A DNA stretch of 64,000 nt from an uncultured Spartobacteria bacterium (GTDB taxonomy: Bacteria; Verrucomicrobiota; Verrucomicrobiia; Chthoniobacterales; Chthoniobacteraceae). The stretch's first letter is position 1. Every line of letters starts with the position of its first letter. Shown piece by piece: positions 1 to 16,179 of the stretch. The position numbers and the translations under genes were made by a program. The notes beneath the pieces were generated by a model. The model did no database searches and had not been told where the DNA came from. It was given only the letters and a program-made list of their open reading frames with translations. The DNA lies in contig CAIRYQ010000034.1 of the NCBI GenBank assembly GCA_903882875.1, positions 1 through 64,000 of the forward strand, written 5' to 3'.

Positions 1-845
1 CGGAAACGGAGCAGTCGCTTGCGGAGACGCAGCGGCGTTCCGCAGAGGAGCACGCGGCGCTTTTGGCGAAGCACGACGGGCTGCACGCGAACTTGCAGGA
101 AGTCACGCGGACGCTGGAGGAGACGCGCCTCGCCGCGGCAGACGCGCACGGCGCATTGTCCGCGGAGAAGGCGGAACTCGGACGGCGACTCGCGGAAACG
201 GAGCAGTCGCTTGCGGAGACGCAGCGGCGTTCCGCAGAGGAGCACGCGGCGCTTTTGGCGAAGCACGACGGGCTGCACGCGAACTTGCAGGAAGTCACGC
301 GGACGCTGGAGGAGACGCGGCACGCAGCCGAGGAGGTGCATGGTGCGTTGTCGCTGGAGAAGGCGGAACTGGAGCGGCGATTTGCGGAGACGCAGCAGTC
401 GCTTGCGGAGACGCAGCGGCGTTCCGCGGAGGAGCACGCGGCGCTTTCGGCGAAGCACGACGAGCTGGATGCGAATTTTCAGGCCGTGTCAAAGACGCTC
501 GACGAAACGCGGCACGCAGCCGAGGAGGTGCATGGTGCGTTGTCGCTGGAGAAGGCGGAACTGGAGCGGCGATTTGCGGAGACGCAGCAGTTGCTTGTGG
601 AGACGCGACGGCATTCCGCGGACGAGCACTCTGCGCTTTTGGCGAAGCACGACGAACTGCACGCGAACTTTCAGGAAGTCACGCGGACGCTGGAGGAGAC
701 GCGCCTCGCCGCGGCGGATACGCACAGCGCGCTGTCTGCGGAGAAGGCGGAACTCGGGCGGCGGCTCACGGAGACGGAGCAGTCGCTTGCCGAGACGCAG
801 CGGCATTCGGCGCAGGTACACGCGGCACTTTCCGCAAAGCACGAC
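1..845 (+). repeat. 192-bp in-frame tandem repeats within the coiled-coil gene
   Basis: About four 192-bp (64-codon) units lie head to tail, with unit boundaries near 63, 255, 447, 639 and 831. Bases 1-127 are identical to 193-319, and the identity may extend left beyond the window. A different segment is shared between units 2 and 3 (about 318-395 against 510-587). The identity includes third codon positions, so the units were duplicated or homogenised recently. Copy number may differ between strains, and short-read assemblies could collapse it. Confidence 0.9.
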
Positions 846-3800
846 GAGCTTCAGGAACGGCATTCGGAGACCGTCCAGAGCCTGCTGGAGACGCGCAGTG
901 CCGCGGCCGAGGAAGTCACATCGCTGAACCGCGCGAAGGCCGCGCTCGAACAGCGGATCGCGGAGAGCGAGAAGGCTCTGGCGGAATTCCAGATCGCCGC
1001 GGCGGACAGGCACGCGGCGCTTTCTTCTGAAAAGGCGGCGCTCGAAGAAAGGCACCGGCAGTTGGAGCAGGTGCACGCGGAATTGCAGTCGGAGTCTTCG
1101 CAGAAACAGGCCAGCCTCGAATCCGAAAAATCCGCGCTCGCCGCGGCGCTCACGGAGGCGCAGCGCAAGGCGGCGGAAGATCTCAGGAATTTCGAGGGGC
1201 TGAAGGCCGGGCTCCAGCGGCGGCTCGCAGAGTACGAGGAGTCCCTGCAGGAACTCAATGCCTCCGCACGCGCGGAGATTGAAAAGCTGTCCGAGGAAAA
1301 GGCGGATCTCGAACGCCGCCTTGCGACGACCGAACACACGCTCGCCGACACGCGGCTCACAACGGACAAGGAGCACGCGGCGCTCGCCACTGCGAAGGGT
1401 GAGCTGGAGGCGCGGCTGGACGAGACCGAGCGGACGCTTGCAGAGGTGCGCAGGACCGCAGCCGAGGAACACGCGGCGCTCACGGGTGAGCGCGATGCGC
1501 TCCAGCAAAAGCTCATCGAGGCGGGGCTCGCGTCCGCCGAGGCGCAGCGGCTCGCGGATGAAAATCACGCGGCGCTGACCGCTGCGAGGGATGATCTCCA
1601 GCACCGCCTGAGCGCGATGGAGGCGAGCCTCATCGAGGCCCGCCGTATCGCAGCCGAGGAGCACGCCGCGCTTTCCGCCCACCGCGACGAACTGCACCGC
1701 AAGGCGGGCGATCTGGAGAGCACGCTCGCCGACACGCGCCGCGCCGCGGGCGAGCATCGCGAGAAGCTCGAGGGCAGGGCGGCGGAACTCGAGGCACAGC
1801 TCGAAACCGCACAGCAGGAACTCGCGGAGGCGAAGCATTCGCTCGGCGTGGAAATTTCCGGGTTGACCGCGGAGAAGGCCGAACTGGCGGCGGATCTCGC
1901 CGCGATGGGTTCGGCGAAGGCGGATTTGGAGAGGCAGCTCGCCGACACGCGCGAGGCGATGGCGCAGGCCGCGCATTCGATGGAGGCCCGGTGCTCGCTG
2001 CTGACTGTGGAAAAGGCGGATCTCGAACGCTGCCTTGCGACCGTCGAGAAGGCACTCGCGGACACGCGCCAGACTGCCGAAAAGGGCAATGCCGCGTTGG
2101 AGGAGGCAAAATCGGAATTGGAAACGCGGCTCGCCGATGCGGAGCGGATGCTGGCGGAATCCCGAAAGTCCGCCGAGGACGGGCACGCCGGGATCGCTGC
2201 GGAGCGCGATGAATTGAAGCGGCGGCTCGCAGCTTCCGAGCAGTCGTTCGCGGAGGCGCGGCGGCAGGCCGGCGAAGATTGCGAGCGGTTCGCGGCGGCA
2301 GCGGACGGCCTGAGGCGCCGCCTTTCCGCAGCGGAAGCCGGCCTCGCCGAAGCGCAGCGCAGCGCGGCGGAGCACCGTGGCACCGCGGAGCAGCACGGCG
2401 CGATTGTTGCGGAGCGTGACGAATTGCAGCGCAGGCTCGGCGAGGCCGGGAATGCGCTGGCCGCCGCACAGCAGGCGGCGGATGAAAAGCACGCCGCGCT
2501 TTCCACGGAGATCAGCGTGCTGCACGCGCGGCTTGCGGATGCGGAGAAAGATTTTTCCGAACGGCAGAAGAACACGGTCGCGGAGTACGCGCCGCTGGCC
2601 GCGCACCGCGACGAACTGCTCCAGAAGCTCGCCGACGCGGAGCACAGGGCCGCGGAGGAACGCCGGGGATTCGAGGCTTTGAAGGCCGGATTGCAGCGCC
2701 GTCTCGCCGAGCAGGAGGAGTCACTGCGCGAATTGAACGAGGCCGCGCGCGCGGCGGCGATCCCTCACGATTCCGCGGTGGCGGAGCATGGCGCGCTGGT
2801 CGCTGAAAGGGATGAGTTGCAACGCACGCTGGCCGCGACTGAACAATCACTCGCGGAAGCACGGCAGAAATTCGATGCGGTGCATGGCGAACTCGCCGAC
2901 GCGCAGCAGCATCTGGGCGACACGCGCCGTCAGCTCGGCGAAGCACAGGCCGGATTTGCGGCGGCGAGGGACGAATGGCAGCGCAAGCTGGACGAGACAG
3001 ATCAGAAGCTCGCCGGTCTGAACGATTCGTTTCATCAGGAAATCTCCGCACTCACCGCGTCGAAGACGGAGCTGGAGACGCGGCTCACCGAGGCGAGCAA
3101 CATCGCGGAGGCCGCGCGCATTTCCGCGGAGCGGGAGCGTTCGGCGCTCCTGGCGGAAAAGGAATCGCTGCAACGTCACCTTGGCGAGATGCAGGACGCG
3201 CTCGCCGCAGAGCGTGCCGCGTTGGAAAGCCACGCCACGGAGCTGGCGGCTGCGAAACAGGGGCTCGGGAACGAGGCCGCTGCGACCGCGGAAAAACTTG
3301 CGGCGGCGCGGCGGCGGATCGAGGAATCCGAGCAGTCGGTTGCGGCGCAGCAGTCGGCATTTTCCGCGGAAAAATCCGCGCTCGAACAGCAGCTTGCCGC
3401 GGCGGGCCGGGCGCTTGATGAACTTCACCAGTCGTCCGGGGGCGAACGTGCCGCGCTCGTCGCGGAGCGCGATGAGCTGCAGCGCCGTCTCACCGAGGCT
3501 GCCGCCGGGCATGAGTCGCTCACGGCCGAGCGCGCGCTCATCGAATCACAGCTCGCGCAGGCGAGGGATTCACATGCGGAATTGCAGACGCGCCTGGAGA
3601 CCGCCGCCGGGCACGAGTCGCTCGCCGCGACCGCACGCGCGGAGCATGACCGAGTGCAGGCCGCGCTCGCCGAGACGGAACGCAGGCTGCACGATGCGCT
3701 CGCGGAGAACGAGCGCCGCAGCGCCGAACGCGCCGGGCTGGAACACCAGCTCGCGGAGCTGGACGACGCACGCCAGCAGCTCCGCAGGGAACTCACGGAA

Positions 3801-4520
3801 AACGAGGGCACCGTGAAAATTCTCGAACAAAAACTCGGCGCAGTGCTGCGCGAGACCGGGCATGATGCCGAACTGCGGAATGCCGAACTCACCGGGATGC
3901 GCGAGGCCTTGGAAAATGCGCGACGCGACGCGGAGCAACTGCGGGCGAAGGCGGATGCCGCGGAGGATTTGGGAAGGCGCCTGCGCACGCTGGAGGAGCA
4001 CGCCGCCGCTGCGGATGCCGGGCGTCAGCATGCGGAGACGGAGCGGGATGCGCTCGCGAAGGCAGTTGCTGCCGCCGAGGAGGATGCGAGGAAGGCAGCA
4101 CTCACGCACGACGAGGCGTTTGCAAACGCGGAGGCGGAACGCGCACGGCAGACGCACGGGCTGGCCGAGGAGATCCGGAAAAAATCCGCCGAGATCGAGT
4201 CCGCTCGCGCCGCGCTCGATTTGGCCCAGCGTGAAAGCGCGGAAGCCAAGGCTGCACACGACTCGGCCGCGCGCCAGCGCGACGAGATCGCGCACCGCAT
4301 GACGCGCGTGACGGACGAGCACAAGCGGCTCCTCGACGATCTTGCCGCCTCCAGTACGGCCGAGTCCGTGTCGCGCTCCGTGCTCCCCGCGCCTGCGAAA
4401 CCGCACCATTTCGTCGAGCTGTCCGATACGGAAATTTTGCCGCCTGTGCGGGAGCGAACGATCAATTTGCCGCCCGCCCGCCCGGTGTCCGTTGCGCCGC
4501 CGAAGGTGCGGACGGTGTAG
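3..4520 (+). CDS. giant coiled-coil protein, 5'-truncated by the window edge
   Basis: The reading frame is open from position 3, so the true start lies upstream and 1505 residues are visible. Almost the whole length is Glu/Ala/Arg/Leu-rich with a heptad-like pattern, which indicates a continuous alpha-helical coiled coil. I see no membrane segment and no catalytic motif. The first ~280 codons are near-identical 64-residue units starting AKHDxLxAN; further in, shorter degenerate units (E/D-L-x-R-R-L-A-E-x-E, EEHAAL) recur. The last ~70 residues break the coil: a Ser/Ala/Pro-rich stretch, an acidic patch (ELSDTEILPP) and a Pro/Val-rich tail. A signal peptidase gene follows 99 bp downstream on the same strand. 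Such proteins are often cytoskeletal, SMC-like or surface scaffolds, but without the N-terminus I assign no function. The long antisense frames are by-products of the biased codon composition. Confidence 0.85.
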   Translation, partial: ETEQSLAETQRRSAEEHAALLAKHDGLHANLQEVTRTLEETRLAAADAHGALSAEKAELGRRLAETEQSLAETQRRSAEEHAALLAKHDGLHANLQEVTRTLEETRHAAEEVHGALSLEKAELERRFAETQQSLAETQRRSAEEHAALSAKHDELDANFQAVSKTLDETRHAAEEVHGALSLEKAELERRFAETQQLLVETRRHSADEHSALLAKHDELHANFQEVTRTLEETRLAAADTHSALSAEKAELGRRLTETEQSLAETQRHSAQVHAALSAKHDELQERHSETVQSLLETRSAAAEEVTSLNRAKAALEQRIAESEKALAEFQIAAADRHAALSSEKAALEERHRQLEQVHAELQSESSQKQASLESEKSALAAALTEAQRKAAEDLRNFEGLKAGLQRRLAEYEESLQELNASARAEIEKLSEEKADLERRLATTEHTLADTRLTTDKEHAALATAKGELEARLDETERTLAEVRRTAAEEHAALTGERDALQQKLIEAGLASAEAQRLADENHAALTAARDDLQHRLSAMEASLIEARRIAAEEHAALSAHRDELHRKAGDLESTLADTRRAAGEHREKLEGRAAELEAQLETAQQELAEAKHSLGVEISGLTAEKAELAADLAAMGSAKADLERQLADTREAMAQAAHSMEARCSLLTVEKADLERCLATVEKALADTRQTAEKGNAALEEAKSELETRLADAERMLAESRKSAEDGHAGIAAERDELKRRLAASEQSFAEARRQAGEDCERFAAAADGLRRRLSAAEAGLAEAQRSAAEHRGTAEQHGAIVAERDELQRRLGEAGNALAAAQQAADEKHAALSTEISVLHARLADAEKDFSERQKNTVAEYAPLAAHRDELLQKLADAEHRAAEERRGFEALKAGLQRRLAEQEESLRELNEAARAAAIPHDSAVAEHGALVAERDELQRTLAATEQSLAEARQKFDAVHGELADAQQHLGDTRRQLGEAQAGFAAARDEWQRKLDETDQKLAGLNDSFHQEISALTASKTELETRLTEASNIAEAARISAERERSALLAEKESLQRHLGEMQDALAAERAALESHATELAAAKQGLGNEAAATAEKLAAARRRIEESEQSVAAQQSAFSAEKSALEQQLAAAGRALDELHQSSGGERAALVAERDELQRRLTEAAAGHESLTAERALIESQLAQARDSHAELQTRLETAAGHESLAATARAEHDRVQAALAETERRLHDALAENERRSAERAGLEHQLAELDDARQQLRRELTENEGTVKILEQKLGAVLRETGHDAELRNAELTGMREALENARRDAEQLRAKADAAEDLGRRLRTLEEHAAAADAGRQHAETERDALAKAVAAAEEDARKAALTHDEAFANAEAERARQTHGLAEEIRKKSAEIESARAALDLAQRESAEAKAAHDSAARQRDEIAHRMTRVTDEHKRLLDDLAASSTAESVSRSVLPAPAKPHHFVELSDTEILPPVRERTINLPPARPVSVAPPKVRTV

Positions 4521-4619: not shown

Positions 4620-5816
4620 ATGTTTTTCCTCACGCCGAAGTTCATCAAGCAGGGCCGCCTCTACATCAAGGAGGCGGAGAAGCGCCTGGCCTACAATCGC
4701 GACCGCTGGACGCCGGAGGTGATCTCAAATTTCGAGGGCGAGATCGAGCGGCTCACCGATGCCGTGAAAAGCCGCGACGAGGCCGCGGTGAAAGTGCATG
4801 AGCAGTCGCTCGACAAGCTCTGCGGCCAGCATTGCCCGCTCGCGCCGAATGCGGGCATCGCGGAAAATGTGGAGGTCATTCTTGTGGCGATCATCGTCGC
4901 GCTCGGCATCCGCACGTATTTTCTCCAGCCGTTCACGATCCCCACGTCCTCGATGTATCCGACGCTGAACGGCATCACGGGCAAGGCCACGACGGAGGAA
5001 CCGCCGAATTTTTTGATCCGCGCATACCAGACCGCCGCATACGGGCGCACCTGGCACAACGTCATCGCCGAGGCTGACGAGACAGTGACCAATGTGGCCG
5101 AGGAAAAGCGCGGCGGTCTGCGCCGGTTCTTCACCTACACCCGCGTGGATACGAGCGCGGGGAACACCTACTGGATCAATGAGGCGAAGGATCCGGTGGA
5201 AGCCGCGTTCGGCGTGAAGCACGGGGAAGGATTTCGCGGGACTTTGGTGGGCAAGTCATTTCACAAGGGAGAGCCCATCGCGCGCGGATATACGGACACG
5301 GGCGATCATGTTTTCGTGGACAAGTTCAGCTACCACTTCCGCAAGCCCACGCGGGGCGAGGTGTTCGTGTTTCTCACCGAGCACATCAATATCCCCGGCT
5401 ACGGTGTCTCCGGGCCGCCGCCGATGAAGCCGTCGCAATTTTACATCAAGCGCCTTGCCGGACTGCCCGGCGACGAACTGCGCATCGCCGCGCCGGAGCT
5501 TTTTCACAATGGCCACCGTGCGGAAGAGCCGGGCTTTGTGCGCGTGATGAAGGGCAGCGATCAAAGTCCGTGGAACCAGTACCGCGGATACTCGAACACG
5601 ATCGGCCACAGGTACGACGAATACAGTCTGGCTTCACCTGACATGGCGTTCCGAGTGCCGGAGCAGAAATATTTTGCGCTCGGTGACAACAGCTACAACA
5701 GCTCCGACAGCCGCGCGTGGGGCACCGTGCCGCAGGAAAATCTCATGGGGCCCGGTTTCCTCGTGTACTGGCCGTTCGTGAATGATCGCGGCTCGCACTT
5801 CGGCCTGATCAAGTAG
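4620..5816 (+). CDS. lepB: signal peptidase I
   Basis: Membrane-bound serine protease that removes signal peptides from exported proteins. A 398-residue product starts at the ATG at 4620 (MFFLTPKF); a TTG 13 codons upstream is in frame but unlikely. Residues 1-80 form a charged cytoplasmic region, longer than in many LepB proteins. One hydrophobic segment follows at about 84-103 (VILVAIIVALGIR). The catalytic Ser is S111 in IPTSSMYPT and the general-base Lys is K277 in IKRLAGLPGDEL. Box E (GDNSYNSSDSRAWG) lies near the C-terminus. About 110 extra residues between the Ser box and the substrate-binding strands make it longer than the E. coli enzyme (324 aa). No second type I signal peptidase is in the window. 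Confidence 0.95.
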   Translation: MFFLTPKFIKQGRLYIKEAEKRLAYNRDRWTPEVISNFEGEIERLTDAVKSRDEAAVKVHEQSLDKLCGQHCPLAPNAGIAENVEVILVAIIVALGIRTYFLQPFTIPTSSMYPTLNGITGKATTEEPPNFLIRAYQTAAYGRTWHNVIAEADETVTNVAEEKRGGLRRFFTYTRVDTSAGNTYWINEAKDPVEAAFGVKHGEGFRGTLVGKSFHKGEPIARGYTDTGDHVFVDKFSYHFRKPTRGEVFVFLTEHINIPGYGVSGPPPMKPSQFYIKRLAGLPGDELRIAAPELFHNGHRAEEPGFVRVMKGSDQSPWNQYRGYSNTIGHRYDEYSLASPDMAFRVPEQKYFALGDNSYNSSDSRAWGTVPQENLMGPGFLVYWPFVNDRGSHFGLIK

Positions 5817-7703: not shown

Positions 7704-8834
7704 CTACGCGGGATCCGATTTTTTGAAAGCAGAAGCGTCGCCGTCGCGGTACAGTCGGGCGACGCGCGGGCCGATTCCGGTGAAAATGTCCCACACAATC
7801 GTGCCCGCGAGCGTGGCGAGTTCGCGGACGGTGATTGCTTCGGTGCCCTGCGTGCCGATGAGCACTGCCTCGTCGCCCGGCGCGGCGGTCACGCCGGTCA
7901 CGTCTGCCATGATTTGATCCATCGTCACTCGGCCGAGGATCGCGCAGCGTTTTCCGCCGATGAGCACCACGGCATTTTTTCCGGAGAGATGCCGCGGGTA
8001 GCCGTCGGCGTAGCCCACGGCGAGCGTCGCGATGCGCATGGGCGCGGGCGTGATGAAGTCCCGCCCGTAGCTCACGCCGCGTCCCTGTTCAAAATCGCGC
8101 ACGAGCAGCACGCGCGTCTTCCACGTCAGCGCGCGGGTGAGGCGGGGCTGGAATTCCGGCAGCGGCGATTCGCCGTAGAGCGCGAGGCCGGGGCGCGCGA
8201 GCGTGCCCGCGACTTTCGGGAATGCGAGCAGCGCCGCGCTGTTCTCGATGTGGACGAGCGCGTCGCGCAGGCCGATGTCGCGGAGCTGCACGACGAGCAC
8301 ATGGAAGCGTGTGAGCTGTGCGCGGGTAAAAACCGCGTCTTCGTCCGCGACGGGGAGGTGCGAGCCGATGCCTGTGATCTGTACGCGCGGAAGCACAGTG
8401 ATTTTCCGCGCGACGGTAATGGCGTCGTCCTGCCACACGCCGAGCCGGCCCATGCCGGTGTCCACCGAGAGATGCACTTTCACGCGCGTGCCGGCCGAGT
8501 ACGCCGCGTATTGCGCCGCCTCCTCGAAGCTCGACACGACCGGGATGAATCCGCGCTCCACGATCGCAGCGTGCTCGGCGGGCAGCGTGCCGCTGAGGAG
8601 GCAGATCGGCGTGCCGCGGGCGTGCGGAAAAATTTCCTCCGCCTCCGCGAGGTTTGCGACGCCGAACATCGCGACTTTTCCCGCGAGCGTATCCACGACA
8701 CCTGCCGCGCCGTGGCCGTAGGCGTTCGCCTTCACGACGGCCATGATTTTCACCGAGGGGCCGGCGATGGCGGCGAGCGTCGCGGCGTTGCTGCGGATGG
8801 CGGCAAGATCCACCTCGACCCAGCTTCGCAGCAT
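7704..8834 (-). CDS. alr: alanine racemase
   Basis: PLP enzyme that interconverts L- and D-alanine for peptidoglycan synthesis. A 376-residue product, the usual length, starts at ATG 8834 (MLRSWVEVDL). The PLP Lys is K35 in VVKANAYGHGA; the second catalytic base is the Tyr in GVSYGRDF. Other signatures are STVDTGMGRLG-like HLSVDTGMGRLG, the PLP phosphate contacts in HIENSAALL and LARPGLALYGE, and the C-terminal beta domain with VGYADGYPR and RVTMDQIMADVT. It is the first gene of a minus-strand group. A divergent gene for an exported protein starts 91 bp away, so the 8835-8925 gap should hold promoters for both directions. A 42-residue N-terminal extension is open but lacks family similarity. 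Confidence 0.96.
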   Translation of the reverse strand: MLRSWVEVDLAAIRSNAATLAAIAGPSVKIMAVVKANAYGHGAAGVVDTLAGKVAMFGVANLAEAEEIFPHARGTPICLLSGTLPAEHAAIVERGFIPVVSSFEEAAQYAAYSAGTRVKVHLSVDTGMGRLGVWQDDAITVARKITVLPRVQITGIGSHLPVADEDAVFTRAQLTRFHVLVVQLRDIGLRDALVHIENSAALLAFPKVAGTLARPGLALYGESPLPEFQPRLTRALTWKTRVLLVRDFEQGRGVSYGRDFITPAPMRIATLAVGYADGYPRHLSGKNAVVLIGGKRCAILGRVTMDQIMADVTGVTAAPGDEAVLIGTQGTEAITVRELATLAGTIVWDIFTGIGPRVARLYRDGDASAFKKSDPA

Positions 8835-8925
8835 CGCGGGGGCCGCATCCGTGGCGGAGATGGAAGACAGACTCGACAAGCGCCGCACTTGGAACACTAA
8901 TTCCCCTCCATTGCCAACCAAACCC

Positions 8926-9597
8926 ATGCGCAAGCTTTTCGCCACATTGCTCCTCACCACGGTCGCCCTGCCACTTTACGCACAGCGCAGCACTGCGCCT
9001 TCGGATTCGTCCGCGCCGCCGAGGCCCCTTGCGGCATCAGCCGAGAAGACGGAGAAGACCGAGAAGCCGAAGACGGAAAAGCCCGCCGATTCGCGCTCGT
9101 TTTTGAAGCGGCTCTTCGGCCCGCGTGCGACTCCGACCCCGGCGCCGAAGGCGACTCCCGCGCCCACTGCAAAAAGCAAACCGAAGACGAAGCCCGCCCC
9201 GGCGGAGATGCCCGAGGAGGCCACTTCAAAAACGAAGCCGAAGACGAATCCCACCGCGGGCGTTCCGCAGTCGCCGACGTCGGGCGGCACGAAGTCGAAG
9301 ACCGGAAAAGTGACGCCGAAGAAAGGCACGCCGAATTCGACCGAACCAGCCGGGCTTGATGACGGGGCAAAATTCAAGAGCGCAAAGGCCAAGGCGCTGG
9401 AGGATGCGAAGCTCGCCGAGCTGAAAAGCAAGGCCGACAGCGAAGTGGACGAGGCCGCAGCCGCGAAGGCATCCGCCGCCTACAACCGCGCGCTCTTTGA
9501 AAAAATCCGCGAGATCGATCCGAGCGTCAGCGAATACGCCACGAAGGTGGAGCATGCGCTCAGCAGGCGCGTCGGAGCGGAGAAGGGCAAGGAGTAG
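8926..9597 (+). CDS. exported Pro/Lys/Thr-rich protein with helical C-terminus
   Basis: A 223-residue protein starting at ATG 8926. A signal peptide spans residues 1-19 (RKLFATLLLTTVALPLYA, cleavage before Gln), with no lipobox Cys. Residues ~30-140 are low-complexity Lys/Pro/Thr (TEKTEKPKTEKP, PAPKATPAPTAK), which suggests a disordered, positively charged periplasmic linker that could bind peptidoglycan or anionic polymers. The last ~75 residues (KFKSAKAKALEDAKLAELKSK onward) are predicted helical and Ala/Glu-rich. No enzyme motif is visible and I do not recognise a family. It is transcribed divergently from alr and lies 36 bp upstream of the hemW-like gene. The in-frame extension upstream of 8926 overlaps alr and is not used. 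Confidence 0.7.
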   Translation: MRKLFATLLLTTVALPLYAQRSTAPSDSSAPPRPLAASAEKTEKTEKPKTEKPADSRSFLKRLFGPRATPTPAPKATPAPTAKSKPKTKPAPAEMPEEATSKTKPKTNPTAGVPQSPTSGGTKSKTGKVTPKKGTPNSTEPAGLDDGAKFKSAKAKALEDAKLAELKSKADSEVDEAAAAKASAAYNRALFEKIREIDPSVSEYATKVEHALSRRVGAEKGKE

Positions 9598-11034: not shown

Positions 11035-11985
11035 TCACACCAGCTTCAGGATCACGATCAGCGTCGTCACCGTGACCATGCTGAACATCGTGCTCCAGAA
11101 CACCGCGCCGGTCGCGTATTCCGTGTCGGCCTTGAACTCATGCGCGATGAACGCGGTGTTCACCGCGGTGGGGAATGCCGTGCTGAGGATCATCGTTTTC
11201 AGCAGTTCGCCGTGGAAGCCGAAGAGCAGCGCCATCCCCCAGCCGACGAGCGGGCCGACGAGCAGCCGCAGCGTGAGTGCCCAGCCGAGGCGCGGCAGCG
11301 TGGCGCGCGCCGCGGTCTTCGAGAGCTGCACGCCGAGCGTGATGAGCGCCATCGCGACGAGGCCGTCGTGGAAATATTTCACCGGCATCCAGAGCCAGCG
11401 CATCGAGGGGAGGGGATGCTCGGCGTCGAAGCTCCCGTGGATGCCGCGCGCGATCAGCGCGAGCGCGACGGCCCAGATGCTCGTCTGCCGCAGCATCGGC
11501 AGCACCGCGCGCCAGCCGCGATTTTTCGCCGAGGACACGAGGAAGATGCCCACGGTGAAATTGCCGATGTTCTGCACGAGCACGATGAAGACCTGCAGCG
11601 CCTCGCTCGGCCCCGGATACGCGAGGTGCATGAGCGGGATGCCGTAGTTGGCCGAATTGTAAAAGACACTTGCGATCTGCATCGAGCGCGTCTGCGCAAG
11701 CGAATAGCCGCGCCACCATGCGATGAGCCCCGCGATGACAAAGAGCACGACGACGACCGACACCGTGTAGGCGACGGCCATCCACGCGTCGCGGCCGGCG
11801 ACCGTCTTCGTCATCAGCTCGTAGAAAATGAACGCCGGGACGAAGACGTTGATGTTCAGCTTCACCACGGTGGCGAGATCGAGATTCCATTTCCGATCCA
11901 GCGCCCAGCCCGCGCCGAACATGATCAGGATGGGCAGCAGGACTTGGGTGAAGACATCGAGGACGAGCACAGTGCCGCGCACCAT
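11035..11985 (-). CDS. AEC-family permease (auxin efflux carrier-like)
   Basis: Membrane transporter of the AEC/BART superfamily. Characterised bacterial members export or import malate, malonate and other small organic anions. A 316-residue product starts at ATG 11985; a GTG five codons earlier (12000) is also possible. Around ten hydrophobic helices span the protein, with the typical inverted-repeat pattern. Polar kinks sit in the fourth helix (FYNSANYGIPLMHL, matching the N-x-G/A-x-x-G-I/Y-P signature) and near the end (AFPTAVNTAFIA). The Asn-Tyr-Gly-Ile-Pro and Pro-Thr-Ala motifs line the substrate path in the family. It converges with the plus-strand gene that ends at 11032. Upstream lies the repeat-filled gap. 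The substrate is unknown. Confidence 0.88.
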   Translation of the reverse strand: MVRGTVLVLDVFTQVLLPILIMFGAGWALDRKWNLDLATVVKLNINVFVPAFIFYELMTKTVAGRDAWMAVAYTVSVVVVLFVIAGLIAWWRGYSLAQTRSMQIASVFYNSANYGIPLMHLAYPGPSEALQVFIVLVQNIGNFTVGIFLVSSAKNRGWRAVLPMLRQTSIWAVALALIARGIHGSFDAEHPLPSMRWLWMPVKYFHDGLVAMALITLGVQLSKTAARATLPRLGWALTLRLLVGPLVGWGMALLFGFHGELLKTMILSTAFPTAVNTAFIAHEFKADTEYATGAVFWSTMFSMVTVTTLIVILKLV

Positions 11986-12203
11986 CCGCAATCCGCGCAC
12001 CGGAATTCAATCGCCAATCGCGTTGCCGCCCGCACGTGTTCAGGCGATGCCCGCGCGCAAAGCCCGCCACTGCCTCCCCGCCGCCTGCTGCACGTCGGCC
12101 TTCTCGGCAGCCAGAACTCCGGCGGCACTCCGCCGCGCCGTCACTCGGGCCTGCGCCCGCCGTCGGCAAGCCGTAGGCCGTCGGAGCCATTCCGCAAAGA
12201 CGG

Positions 12204-12420
12204 GCGGCCCAACCTCGCGGCTGGATCGCCCAACCTCGCGGCTGGACGGCTCAACCTCACGGCTGGATCGCCCAACCTCGCGGCTGGACGGCCCAACCTC
12301 ACGGCTGGACGGCCCAACCTCACGGCTGGACGGCCCAACCTCACGGCTGGACGGCCCGACCTCACGGCTGGACGACCCAGCCTCACGGCTGGATGGCTCA
12401 ACCGCGCGGGTGGACGGCTC
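12204..12420. repeat. 21-bp minisatellite, array A (~10 copies)
   Basis: About ten direct head-to-tail copies of a 21-bp unit with core CGGCCCAACCTCACGGCTGG. Copies differ mainly at three or four positions (CGGCCC/CGGCTC/TCGCCC, CTCG/CTCA, GGAC/GGAT). The array abuts array B, which has a different unit of the same length. Confidence 0.92.
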
Positions 12421-12427
12421 AGCGACG

Positions 12428-12660
12428 ACCCCGGATCGTCGGGGACCGGGCCCGGACGGTCGGGGACTGAGCCCGGACGGTTGGGGACCGGGCCCGGACG
12501 GTTGGGGACTGGGCTCGGACGGTCGGGGACTGGGACCGGACGGTTGGGGACTGGGCTCGGATGGTTGGGGACTGGGCCCGGATGGTTGGGGACCGGGCCC
12601 GGATGGTTGGGGACCGGGCCCGGATGGTTGGGGACCGGGCCCGGATGGTCTGGGACTGGG
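12428..12660. repeat. 21-bp minisatellite, array B (~11 copies)
   Basis: About eleven direct copies of a second 21-bp unit, core GGCCCGGATGGTTGGGGACC. The copies near 12580-12650 are almost identical and those toward array A are more divergent (GGAC/GGAT, GTCGG/GTTGG). That gradient suggests expansion from the distal end. The shared 21-bp period of arrays A and B, despite unrelated sequences, is notable. Confidence 0.92.
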
Positions 12661-12784
12661 CGAAAAGCGGCTAAATGCGGGCCTTTTTCAGAAAACAGCG
12701 GCGAAATGCCGCATTTCAGGCCGCGCCAACCATCCGGCACCTTTCTTTCGGTCCCCTCTCGCACAAACCCACCACCGACCCGAA

Positions 12785-12802
12785 GCGGCAGAGGGCTGCC
12801 GC
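12785..12802 (-). terminator. hairpin downstream of the kinase gene, possible terminator
   Basis: A perfect inverted repeat GCGGCAG-AGGG-CTGCCGC lies 33 bp past the kinase stop on the minus strand. No U-run follows, so intrinsic termination is doubtful. A second small hairpin (GAAATG-CCG-CATTTC) lies near 12703-12717. Confidence 0.35.
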
Positions 12803-12834
12803 ACCCCAAATGGCCCGCCTCCTCCCGCCAGCGG

Positions 12835-15783
12835 CTACTTCTTCCCCACCGCCTGCTGCGCGTCGTATTCGGCCCAGAACTCGGCGACGGGGCGGTAGGG
12901 GGCGAGGTTGTAGGCGATGAACTTCAAGTTCGGGTGCTGGCGCAACGGTTCGAGCTTTTTGCCGGCGGACGACACGCGCAGTTTTTCGAGCTTTGGTACC
13001 TGGAGCAGAGGCGTGTAATCGGCGATCGGATTGTCACAGATGTCCAATTCGTCGATTTGTGTATCGTGCAAGGGGGAGAGGTCGGTGATTTTGTTCATCG
13101 AAATTCTCAGAAGACGAAGTCTTTTCCCGCGCAGTGGCGAAAGATCGGAAATTCGGTTGTTGTAAGCCTTCAAGAATTCTAGCGGCGCTTTAGCTAGGAA
13201 AGTCAGGTCGCTGACGGAGTCCCCGTCAATAATCACCTCCCGGAGTGCGGCGACATTGAGCGGCGAGAAATCGACCAACTGCGAGCTGTATGCGCAGGTG
13301 AGCTTTTCCAGCGGCATGCCGCGCAAGGGCGATAAATCAGTGAGCTTCGTGTTGTCGATGATGAACTCTCGCAGTGGCATGCCGTGGAGGGGTGAGAGGT
13401 CGGTGACTTTGTAGGCCCCGTATATCTCAAGTTTGCAAAGGCGCATTCCGCGGAGCGGTTCGAGGCTGGTGAAGCTGCTTTGAGAAGCCTTGAGTTCATC
13501 AATGGGAAGTCCGCGCAACGGTTCCAGCGTGGCGGCATTGTTGAGCCAGACGTTAATGAGACCGGTGGCCGTCACAGTCAAATGTGTCCCATTGTTTTGA
13601 AGTTTGCCGAGCCATTCTGTGATCCGGTCTTCCACCAGTTTTCGCTTTTGCTCGGCTCCGAGTTGGAGCTTGCGGGAGAGTGCGGCGAATTCTCCGCTGG
13701 CTCCGACCTTCTGGAGATGCTCGATGAGCCGCTCCATCCACTTGGGTACCCAGCGCTCCTGCTCCGGTGCGGCGCCGAATTCCTCAACGGTGGGCAGGAT
13801 GTCCGCGAGCGCCGCGTGCGCGGGATCGCGCTGCTGCGCGAGCCGGATGGCGTCCGCAGCGGCACTCCACTGCTCCTGCCCGATGAGAATCCATGCGCGC
13901 CGCCAATAAGCCGGGAGCAATCCGGGATCCAGCAGGAGTGCGGTATCGATTTTTCCCAGCGCGCTGTCGAAACGCTGGAATCCCGCTTCGCTCTCCGCCA
14001 GCGCGAGCATCGTCGGCGCGGTCTTTTTCAAATCGGCGAGCGCTTTGGTGGCCTTGGCTTCGCCTGCTTCGGCGCGCACCGCTTCACTCTCAGCGCGGCG
14101 GCCTTCCTCGGCGATTTTCAATTTCAGCCCACGCTCCCTGGCAAACGCGAAGGTGAGGAAGACCGCAACGATGACCACGGCGGCGGCGGCGAAGGACAGG
14201 AGGCGCACCTGCTTCTTCCGCCGCGCCGCACGCGCCCGCAGCCGTTCCGCGGCTTCCTTTTCCATGCGGCGCTGCGGCAGCGTGCGCAGGTGCGCGGCGA
14301 GCTGCGCACCTCCGGCAAAGCGTTTCGCCGGATCGCCGGCGACGCAGTGCTGGATGTCTTCGCGCAACAGCGGGTCGGCGATGTCCTCGCCCCAGTCGCT
14401 CGTGAGCGGGCGGTTCATCGCGCCGACCGTGAGCTGGTAAAGCATCACGCCCAGCGCGTAGATGTCGCTGCGGATCGTCGCGGGCTGGCCTGCGAGCATC
14501 TCGGGCGCGAGGTAGAGCCGTGTGCCGGTGAGGCTGTCCTCATTCACCATCGTCTGCGTGAAGCCGATCTGTGTGATGCCCGAGGGTGTGTCGCCCGAGA
14601 CGAGCTGGCCGATGCCGAAGTCCGCAAGCCTCGCCCGCGGCTGCCCGTCCTTCTCCCCGTTTTCCTCGATGAGGATGTTCGACGGCTTCACGTCGCGATG
14701 GATCACGCCCGCGTCGTGCGCGCTCTGCAAGGCGTCGGCCACCTGCGCGATGATCTCCAGCCGCGTCTCCAGCGGCACCGAATCGAGCGGCACATGCGCC
14801 GCCGCCCAGCCCGCGAGGTCCGGGCCGTCAATGAAGTCCATCACGATGAAGTACGGCGGCTCGTCAAAGGAAACATCATGCACCGCGACGATGCCCGCCG
14901 AGGAGCCGATGCGGTCGCGCAGCACCCGGAACAGCGTGACCTCGCGCTTGAGCGAGCGCGCCTTGTCGGCATCGAAGCAAAACTTGAACACGCGCTGGTC
15001 CTTCAGGGTCCGGTGCCGCGCCAGCCACACTTCGCCGAAGCCGCCCTCGCCGAGCTTGCGCACCAGCACCCACTCCGCGCGCCCCGGCACCTCCAGCCCG
15101 CCCGCAGGTCGCCACCCCAGCGTCTCCTCCTCGCCCGGACGGAGCACGCGCTTTGCCTTCTCGCCATCCGGCGGCGCGACGAGCGGCGCACCTTCCGAGG
15201 CACCCACCTCGAAGACTTCCACCGGCTCCTCGCAGCCTTTGAAAAGATACGGCCCGTGCGCCAGCCACGTCAGCGTCGGCACCTCGCCATTTTCCACCTG
15301 CGGATGCGCGCGCACAAAATGCCGCGCCTCATCAAACGGCCCGCGCGTGAGCAGAATCTGCCCGCCCACCGCGAGTCCCATCACCCGCGCCACCAGATCC
15401 GCCGCAGGCGCGAGCACGTCCGCCTGCCCGAGCGTCGTGATGTCCGCGACTTCGCCCGCATGGATGCCCACGCGCGTCGTGATCGGAAATCCCGGCCATG
15501 CCATCGTCCGCATCCCGTGCTGGAAGCGCAGCGCAAACCGCACCACCGCCGCCACGCTCGTGCTGCGCGCAAAGTAGCCGTCGCCCGTGTTCTTGATCAG
15601 CGTCAGCTTCTCCTCCGCGGCGAGCGACTCGAAGAGCCGGTTGTGCAGCTCCGCCGCGCGCTTGTATTCGATCGCGCCGTGCTGCGACTTCAGCGCCGTC
15701 GAGTCGCAGATGTCCGTGAACAGCAGCACCGCAAACTGCGTGCGCTCATCCGGCACACTCTGGGGAGGCGTTTCACTGGCCAT
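12835..15783 (-). CDS. class III cyclase-like domain / Ser-Thr protein kinase / LRR fusion
   Basis: A 982-residue membrane signalling protein starting at ATG 15783 (MASETPPQ). Domains in order: (1) residues ~15-195, a class III nucleotide-cyclase homology domain with both metal-binding Asp (D24 in LFTDICDST, D68 in KNTGDGYFA) and RVGIHAGEV; (2) residues ~238-500, a Hanks-type kinase with glycine loop KLGEGGFGEVW, Lys in VFKFC (K267), HRDVKPSN (D364), DFG (388-390) and APE (426-428); (3) a transmembrane helix at ~526-548; (4) an outer region with a helical TPR-like stretch (SEAGFQRFDSALGKIDTALLLDPG); (5) about eight leucine-rich repeats built on DLSPLxGMPLxxL. All kinase catalytic residues look intact. 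Kinase and cyclase are placed in the cytoplasm and the LRRs outside, so the LRRs could be the sensor. Upstream codons to 15951 belong to an intergenic repeat. Confidence 0.9.
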   Translation of the reverse strand: MASETPPQSVPDERTQFAVLLFTDICDSTALKSQHGAIEYKRAAELHNRLFESLAAEEKLTLIKNTGDGYFARSTSVAAVVRFALRFQHGMRTMAWPGFPITTRVGIHAGEVADITTLGQADVLAPAADLVARVMGLAVGGQILLTRGPFDEARHFVRAHPQVENGEVPTLTWLAHGPYLFKGCEEPVEVFEVGASEGAPLVAPPDGEKAKRVLRPGEEETLGWRPAGGLEVPGRAEWVLVRKLGEGGFGEVWLARHRTLKDQRVFKFCFDADKARSLKREVTLFRVLRDRIGSSAGIVAVHDVSFDEPPYFIVMDFIDGPDLAGWAAAHVPLDSVPLETRLEIIAQVADALQSAHDAGVIHRDVKPSNILIEENGEKDGQPRARLADFGIGQLVSGDTPSGITQIGFTQTMVNEDSLTGTRLYLAPEMLAGQPATIRSDIYALGVMLYQLTVGAMNRPLTSDWGEDIADPLLREDIQHCVAGDPAKRFAGGAQLAAHLRTLPQRRMEKEAAERLRARAARRKKQVRLLSFAAAAVVIVAVFLTFAFARERGLKLKIAEEGRRAESEAVRAEAGEAKATKALADLKKTAPTMLALAESEAGFQRFDSALGKIDTALLLDPGLLPAYWRRAWILIGQEQWSAAADAIRLAQQRDPAHAALADILPTVEEFGAAPEQERWVPKWMERLIEHLQKVGASGEFAALSRKLQLGAEQKRKLVEDRITEWLGKLQNNGTHLTVTATGLINVWLNNAATLEPLRGLPIDELKASQSSFTSLEPLRGMRLCKLEIYGAYKVTDLSPLHGMPLREFIIDNTKLTDLSPLRGMPLEKLTCAYSSQLVDFSPLNVAALREVIIDGDSVSDLTFLAKAPLEFLKAYNNRISDLSPLRGKRLRLLRISMNKITDLSPLHDTQIDELDICDNPIADYTPLLQVPKLEKLRVSSAGKKLEPLRQHPNLKFIAYNLAPYRPVAEFWAEYDAQQAVGKK

Positions 15784-15851
15784 GCGCGGGGACGCTGACA
15801 GGAATCGCAGCCGTGGCAAGACCTGTGGCGGCGGGTTGTGGGTCAGTTTGG

Positions 15852-15947
15852 ATTTCACGACGAAGGGCACGAAGCACACGAAGAAGCTCCAAAGAGCAGG
15901 GCCGACCCAAACGCTTTCGCCTTCGTGCCCTTTGTGCGCTTCGTAGT
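15852..15947. repeat. intergenic palindromic repeat, GAAGGGCACGAAG family
   Basis: The arm CACGACGAAGGGCACGAAG (from 15853, continuing with CACACGAAGAAG) is matched by an inverted arm at 15915-15945 (TTCGTGCCCTTTGTGCGCTTCG) around a ~30-bp loop. Both arms read as pseudo-coding His/Glu/Gly/Lys-rich peptides. This type is familiar as a dispersed repeat in planctomycete and verrucomicrobial genomes. It fills part of the 396-bp gap between the divergent kinase and Tat-protein genes; I see no gene in that gap. Confidence 0.75.
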
Positions 15948-16179
15948 TCAAATAGAGCCCCTACCGGCGGCAGGGCTGACGCATGCAAATCACATTCGCG
16001 AGCGACGGCGACTCTCGGGTGGAGCACGCGAGAGGATGCGCTGGTTGCCAGCGGGATTTTTGAGCGCGCAAATACACGCCCTCGCGGTTCGCCACCACAC
16101 CGGCCTCGCCATTTTGAACCGTCAGATCAGCGGTAAAAGAATGCTTGCCTGTCTGCGTGCCGGGGGCACGATCCGTATC

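Follow-up and report, generated by a model that had tools for sequence, protein, structure and literature searches.

Prokaryotic satellites are defined as at least four tandem repeats of 10–200 nt; they are species-specific and scattered, many units are unique, and transposition of noncoding satellites is termed rare, as stated in the parts of that survey drawn on here (PMC6749651). The BrickBuilt minisatellite-MITE of Porphyromonas gingivalis has a 23 nt unit in up to 22.8 copies (PMC4596501). REP elements, with GTAG or CGTC tags, are palindromes of 20–40 bp with stems of 5–13 bp, found mostly as inverted dimers (PMC3733652). Intergenic tandem repeats, in that case tied to structural variants, are described from lake Planctomycetota (PMC9426551).

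Here we describe two tandem arrays, A and B (positions 12205–12661), in a 64-kb stretch of DNA from an uncultured Spartobacteria bacterium; this whole stretch, on contig C34 in our numbering, is called the window below. Like the prokaryotic satellites, A, B and the other arrays of this genome are tandem, scattered and species-specific with many unique units, whereas the portion of the satellite survey used here describes no bacterium with unrelated noncoding satellites of one period, as found here. The arrays resemble BrickBuilt in having a unit of about two helical turns, an intergenic position, several dispersed copies and imperfect repeats; BrickBuilt, however, has one unit sequence with a common leader and tail and inverted-repeat ends, whereas here the units are unrelated and common ends are seen for locus pairs only. 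The likeness to REP elements lies in the short, intergenic repeats, in the palindromic units of some arrays and in the presence of RAYT genes in the genome, but A and B differ in being head-to-tail and without a dyad. The Planctomycetota repeats are likewise intergenic and come from a lake bacterium of the same superphylum; that is another phylum, and the passages used here give no period. In the same partial view of these four sources, a fixed 21-bp period is not found (PMC6749651, PMC4596501, PMC3733652, PMC9426551).

A composite 21-bp array beside a permease gene

Using TRF on the 64-kb window, we identified array A at 12205–12418 (period 21, 10.2 copies, 87% matches, 0% indels, score 316) and array B at 12430–12661 (period 21, 11.0 copies, 90% matches, 0% indels, score 324). 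Both far exceed chance expectation and, being internally regular, fall within the satellite definition (PMC6749651). By wraparound alignment, the A copies (unit CGGCCCAACCTCACGGCTGGA; also laid out in a 21-column listing) contain 16 substitutions and the 11 B copies (unit CCCGGATGGTTGGGGACTGGG) contain 20, with 0 indels in either; counted by type, substitutions are mostly transitions (12 against 4 others in A, 19 against 5 in B). When the sequence is written in rows of 21 from 12205, a GGAYGG core straddles the row boundary (GGA before it, YGG after it) in almost all A and B copies, and one mixed copy (CGGCTCAGCGACGACCCCGGA, at about 12415–12435) joins the two without a change of the 21-bp register; contig C91 has a matching junction. 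Given the same register, the common core and the mixed junction copy, A and B are one composite array. The earlier note had taken them as two adjacent minisatellites with the same period: both arrays and the period of 21 stand, but they are in phase and not independent.

Other points of that note hold at this locus. Array B had been seen to be more alike at one end, and the identity of adjacent copies does climb from left to right (17, 18, 19, 18, 18, 19, 20, 21 and 21 of 21, followed by a degenerate last copy at 14), so that the right-end copies are the most alike, supporting a recent, one-ended expansion. The arrays had been read as open in several frames on both strands, and long ORFs indeed cross both of them (782 aa and 356 aa on the plus strand, 222 aa on the minus strand), as expected of GC-rich, stop-free units with a length divisible by 3. 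The array was also correctly placed upstream of the AEC-type permease (Pfam Mem_trans; 11035–11985, minus strand), about 220 bp 5' of its start at 11985. On the other side, 173 bp from the array, is the 3' end of a gene for a protein with a guanylate-cyclase-like domain, a protein kinase domain and LRRs (12835–15951, minus strand).

No promoter-like site was found, and the only terminator-like one, a weak site, lies 3' of the kinase gene; Rfam matches in 11900–12900 were all far under the gathering scores and belonged to eukaryotic miRNA/lncRNA families. The core of the B unit recurs once more, as a lone inverted 12-nt copy (CCAACCATCCGG) at 12726–12737, 65 bp past the array. The stretch 12066–12125 resembles C94:1023–1074 as well as the neighbouring kinase/LRR gene at its 3' end (12834–12886), and is likely to be what remains of a gene end that was duplicated. 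According to TRF, the only other 21-bp array in the window is a short row at 373–421, inside a larger repeat. The left edge of the window (1–966) has repeats of 96, 192 and 384 bp, which are coding-type and coiled-coil-like.

The permease is 96% and 92% identical to those of the two closest relatives, G004 and G003, respectively. Homology from the permease side ends within 12019–12029 (G003 matches the window up to 12019, G004 up to 12029), and beyond it the gene lying just upstream of the permease is a different one in these genomes. The segment carrying the array and the kinase gene is therefore not the one seen in the nearest relatives, and no array is present at the permease locus of either.

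Copies of the A and B units in the same genome

The genome (G000; 5.78 Mb in 129 contigs) is fragmented and looks like a draft or a MAG. The A units form an array again only at C91, while B-like units are found at C91, C21, C115, C48, C26, C94, C72 and C4; with the many other 21-bp arrays described below, this bears out the expectation of related arrays elsewhere in the genome. C91 aligns with the window from the leader flank (12079–12204 in the window; 80% over 130 bp) through array A and the junction into the first copies of B; the composite and its flank were thus copied as one piece. Copy numbers at C91, where the contig ends within array B, differ from those of the window; this difference, like the identity of the right-end copies of B in the window, is an indirect sign of change in copy number. 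C26 and C115 have a common tail (p 0.003), to which the window tail shows no significant likeness (p 0.71 and 0.14). Apart from this pair and the leader in common with C91, no flanks are in common among the other B-like copies.

Tandem arrays across the genome

We surveyed the first 20 kb of contigs C1–C101, with C34 represented by the window, and a few array loci in addition; the sample amounts to 1.71 Mb, or about 30% of the genome, and comes mainly from contig starts. TRF reported 119 arrays in this sample, a count that may miss indel-rich arrays and in which not all arrays are independent families; as the assembly is a draft, arrays may also be collapsed and their true lengths hidden by gaps. 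Coding and noncoding arrays were separated by a simple home-made codon-usage gene caller, which called some coding repeats noncoding (e.g. a collagen-like repeat at 211–330 of locus L286). Among the 46 noncoding arrays with a TRF score of at least 100, 32 have a period of 21, 42 or 63 (13, 10 and 9 arrays, respectively), 5 have a period of 22 or 44 (4 and 1) and 3 have a period of 106, which is about 5 × 21.2; the other periods are single. Arrays called coding mostly have other periods, which are spread and chiefly multiples of three. The units are mostly unrelated between arrays (e.g. GCATACCCGATCGGAAACGCG, TTCCAAACTGGAAAACGCACC and GCATTGGCCCCATCACACCGT). Autocorrelation of the noncoding DNA has peaks at 21, 42, 63, 84, 105 and 126, which are mostly gone once the arrays are masked. 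Wraparound alignment of 33 arrays gave 481 substitutions versus 10 gap positions (7 inserted, 3 deleted), 7 of the 10 being in one 42-bp array. Gene ends facing arrays are 26 5' ends versus 22 3' ends, and thus the arrays prefer neither terminators nor promoters.

A 21/22-bp array is found in or beside 13 of 100 sampled contig starts, compared with 24 arrays in the other 1.59 Mb. Such a contig-end excess is as expected if these arrays break the assembly, and many of the assembly breaks of this genome are thereby explained; the true number and lengths of the arrays are consequently likely higher.

Several individual loci were also recorded. Three 22-bp arrays of about 95% identity (C53:697–1014, C87:1–469 and C89:1–175) include two that are related (GTCGTACGAC-like core) and lie on different contigs. 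Related 106-bp noncoding repeats (C19:12649–12914, C39:16018–16372 and C80:934–1239) look like five sub-units of 21–22 bp, i.e. a higher-order satellite. At C92:13340–13990 (L344), a RAYT (Y1_Tnp) gene (13522–13872) lies between inverted copies of a palindromic element (CCCAGCGCTTCAGCGC...), and from this arrangement the locus is probably a REPIN-RAYT system; the palindromic CCCAGCGCTTCAGCGC family is found at 14 sampled loci, with one copy beside the 21-bp array of C4. Within C3:7678–9101 (L256), another RAYT gene (8763–9101) is about 0.9 kb from a 21-bp array of CCGATCGG units, and the C44 and C50 contigs, which carry arrays of the same family, are without RAYT.

Arrays in relatives and other bacteria

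Two other members of this verrucomicrobial genus, G001 and G007, contain many 21-bp arrays with other units (e.g. GGACGGCGGAATAACGTTATT and GGACGGAGTTTCCTCCGAGGC). G002 has a 42-bp array, and the 42-bp array of G009 is made of two alternating 21-mers. In 120 kb of G008, also of this genus, we found one weak 21-bp noncoding row of 2.3 copies only, so the 21-bp regime may differ across the genus. The noncoding arrays of G018, from the same family, have other periods. Of ten genus members, only G000 was found to have the CCGATCGG arrays. Judging from these units, unit sequences vary from one species to the next while the period is kept.

By a cruder ORF criterion, applied to both sets, a period of 21, 42 or 63 was counted in 15 of 26 strong arrays outside long ORFs in our own sample and in 4 of 22 in a control set of loci from 77 contigs of other bacteria (Fisher p 0.008). 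The arrays that had brought the control loci in were left out; this set is small, and a 21-bp pattern had served to fetch it. No plasmid relatives were found, and in viral sequences the anchor pattern matched 24 stretches, 0 of them with A or B units.

At some loci of the relatives (G001 L234, L235 and L242; G007 L244), 21-bp arrays lie near genes with 69-bp (23-aa) LRR repeats, and it is possible that LRR genes and their flanks were co-duplicated; an association of arrays with LRR genes was not retained, because the neighbours of the G000 arrays varied. In G007 (L245), two heptamer arrays (AATCCGC at 3901–3932 and CAATCCG at 5132–5164) flank a 21-bp array, the period of which is three times theirs.

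Explanations for the common period

We consider it probable that the composite array is a member of a genome-wide set of noncoding satellites in which the sequence is free and the period is fixed at 21 bp (sometimes 22, with the multiples 42 and 63). One period across unrelated, species-specific units points to a common length-setting process, and not to a protein or a single binding site. The main rival to amplification in whole units is selection on helical phase for a bound protein: each array would be a set of protein sites on one helix face (iteron- or centromere-like), and the phase constraint would explain why indels are few. The period of two turns and the rarity of indels agree with this, as does the GGAYGG core, which is retained in A, B and several other arrays of the genus, but the GGAYGG arrays of the relatives were fetched by that very motif. 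In an unbiased set of 34 arrays, unrelated arrays share no 5- or 6-mer above a column-shuffled null, which gives no genome-wide support to the sequence-specific binding array suggested in the earlier note; the units of sister species are wholly different, and the closest relatives are without an array at the permease locus. Phased binding is thus unlikely in our judgement. Curvature phasing, suggested along with it, finds no support in A and B, where the longest A/T run is 2, and there is no G-quadruplex match in either array. An unusual recombination site, also raised in that note, would be compatible with the break in local synteny, although the break does not count as evidence for it.

If the array were instead a minisatellite within a miniature mobile element (BrickBuilt-like), with leader, tandem array and tail moving jointly between intergenic sites, this would account for the B-like units on eight further contigs, the leader, A, junction and B in common between the window and C91, the common tail of C26 and C115 and the synteny break near the array. 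Yet a common leader and tail at most copies, as in BrickBuilt, is not what we observed: the leader is common to the window and C91 only, the candidate common tail was rejected since the window tail does not significantly match that of C26 and C115, and the flanks of the other copies are not in common. In 12000–12900, where the ends of such an element are undefined, no terminal inverted repeats were found around the array, the only matches being the 12-nt inverted B-core ones at 12726–12737. As most 21-bp arrays of the genome have unrelated units as well, we hold this explanation to be improbable.

The units might also act as tandem hairpins (REP-like DNA or RNA elements), with stem-loops that function in transcripts or block nucleases. 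The hairpin potential of the arrays is modestly enriched: 17 of 51 arrays, where about 5 were expected, exceed their column-shuffled versions in self-complementarity on one strand or both, the two strands being alike, and Watson–Crick dyads are enriched overall (Fisher p 0.001, with arrays that are not all independent). Against this, A (p 0.99) and B (p 0.87) have no dyad beyond shuffles and so lack the palindromic unit of REP elements, their folding is marginal, on the minus strand for A (p 0.066) but on the plus strand for B (p 0.033), and the orientation of gene ends is unbiased. The large z values from dinucleotide shuffling are mostly an effect of periodicity (for the A minus strand, −11.6 becomes −1.8 with a period-keeping null), and with the dyad test failing for A and B, a hairpin or RNA element was rejected as a general rule; for the array itself it has only a slim chance. 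Slimmer still is that of a coding heptapeptide repeat, belonging to a low-complexity and possibly phase-variable protein as the earlier note had considered. A unit of 21 bp does equal seven codons and several ORFs are open through both arrays, but the codon model calls the array region noncoding, the same genome has 22-bp arrays, and the codon-position substitution test gave a random mod-3 distribution, with p 0.62 for A, p 0.94 for B and a Fisher p of 0.99 for 30 arrays combined.

The 22-bp arrays, inexplicable by codons, fit two helical turns, in keeping with the original reading of the period, and the higher-order 42- and 63-bp arrays imply that growth keeps whole units. Under the preferred explanation of a fixed period with free sequence, then, amplification advances by whole units of 21 bp, a step size that two helical turns probably determine. 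New arrays would start within intergenic sequence and lengthen by whole units through slippage or unequal recombination; either the physics of amplification or the enzymes that carry it out would keep the unit to two turns of B-DNA. What holds it there could be a slippage or recombination intermediate that tolerates whole turns only, or an enzyme with such a ruler, and self-complementary units are perhaps favoured as starters. At the present locus, A would have drifted into B within one array, the right end of B being amplified last, and no role for the neighbouring permease or kinase gene would be needed. More tentatively, and with a good deal less confidence, we suggest a lineage-specific process, dedicated or strongly biased, that uses a two-turn DNA ruler to make 21-bp satellites from arbitrary intergenic sequence, with fast replacement between species, such that the period would be inherited and not the sequence.

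The unusual feature of this genome is a single two-turn period in most of its noncoding minisatellites, the units of which are unrelated and change between sister species. Such a genome lends itself to asking, in a natural setting, whether the length of an amplified tandem unit is determined by helix geometry, by an enzyme or by selection for phase.
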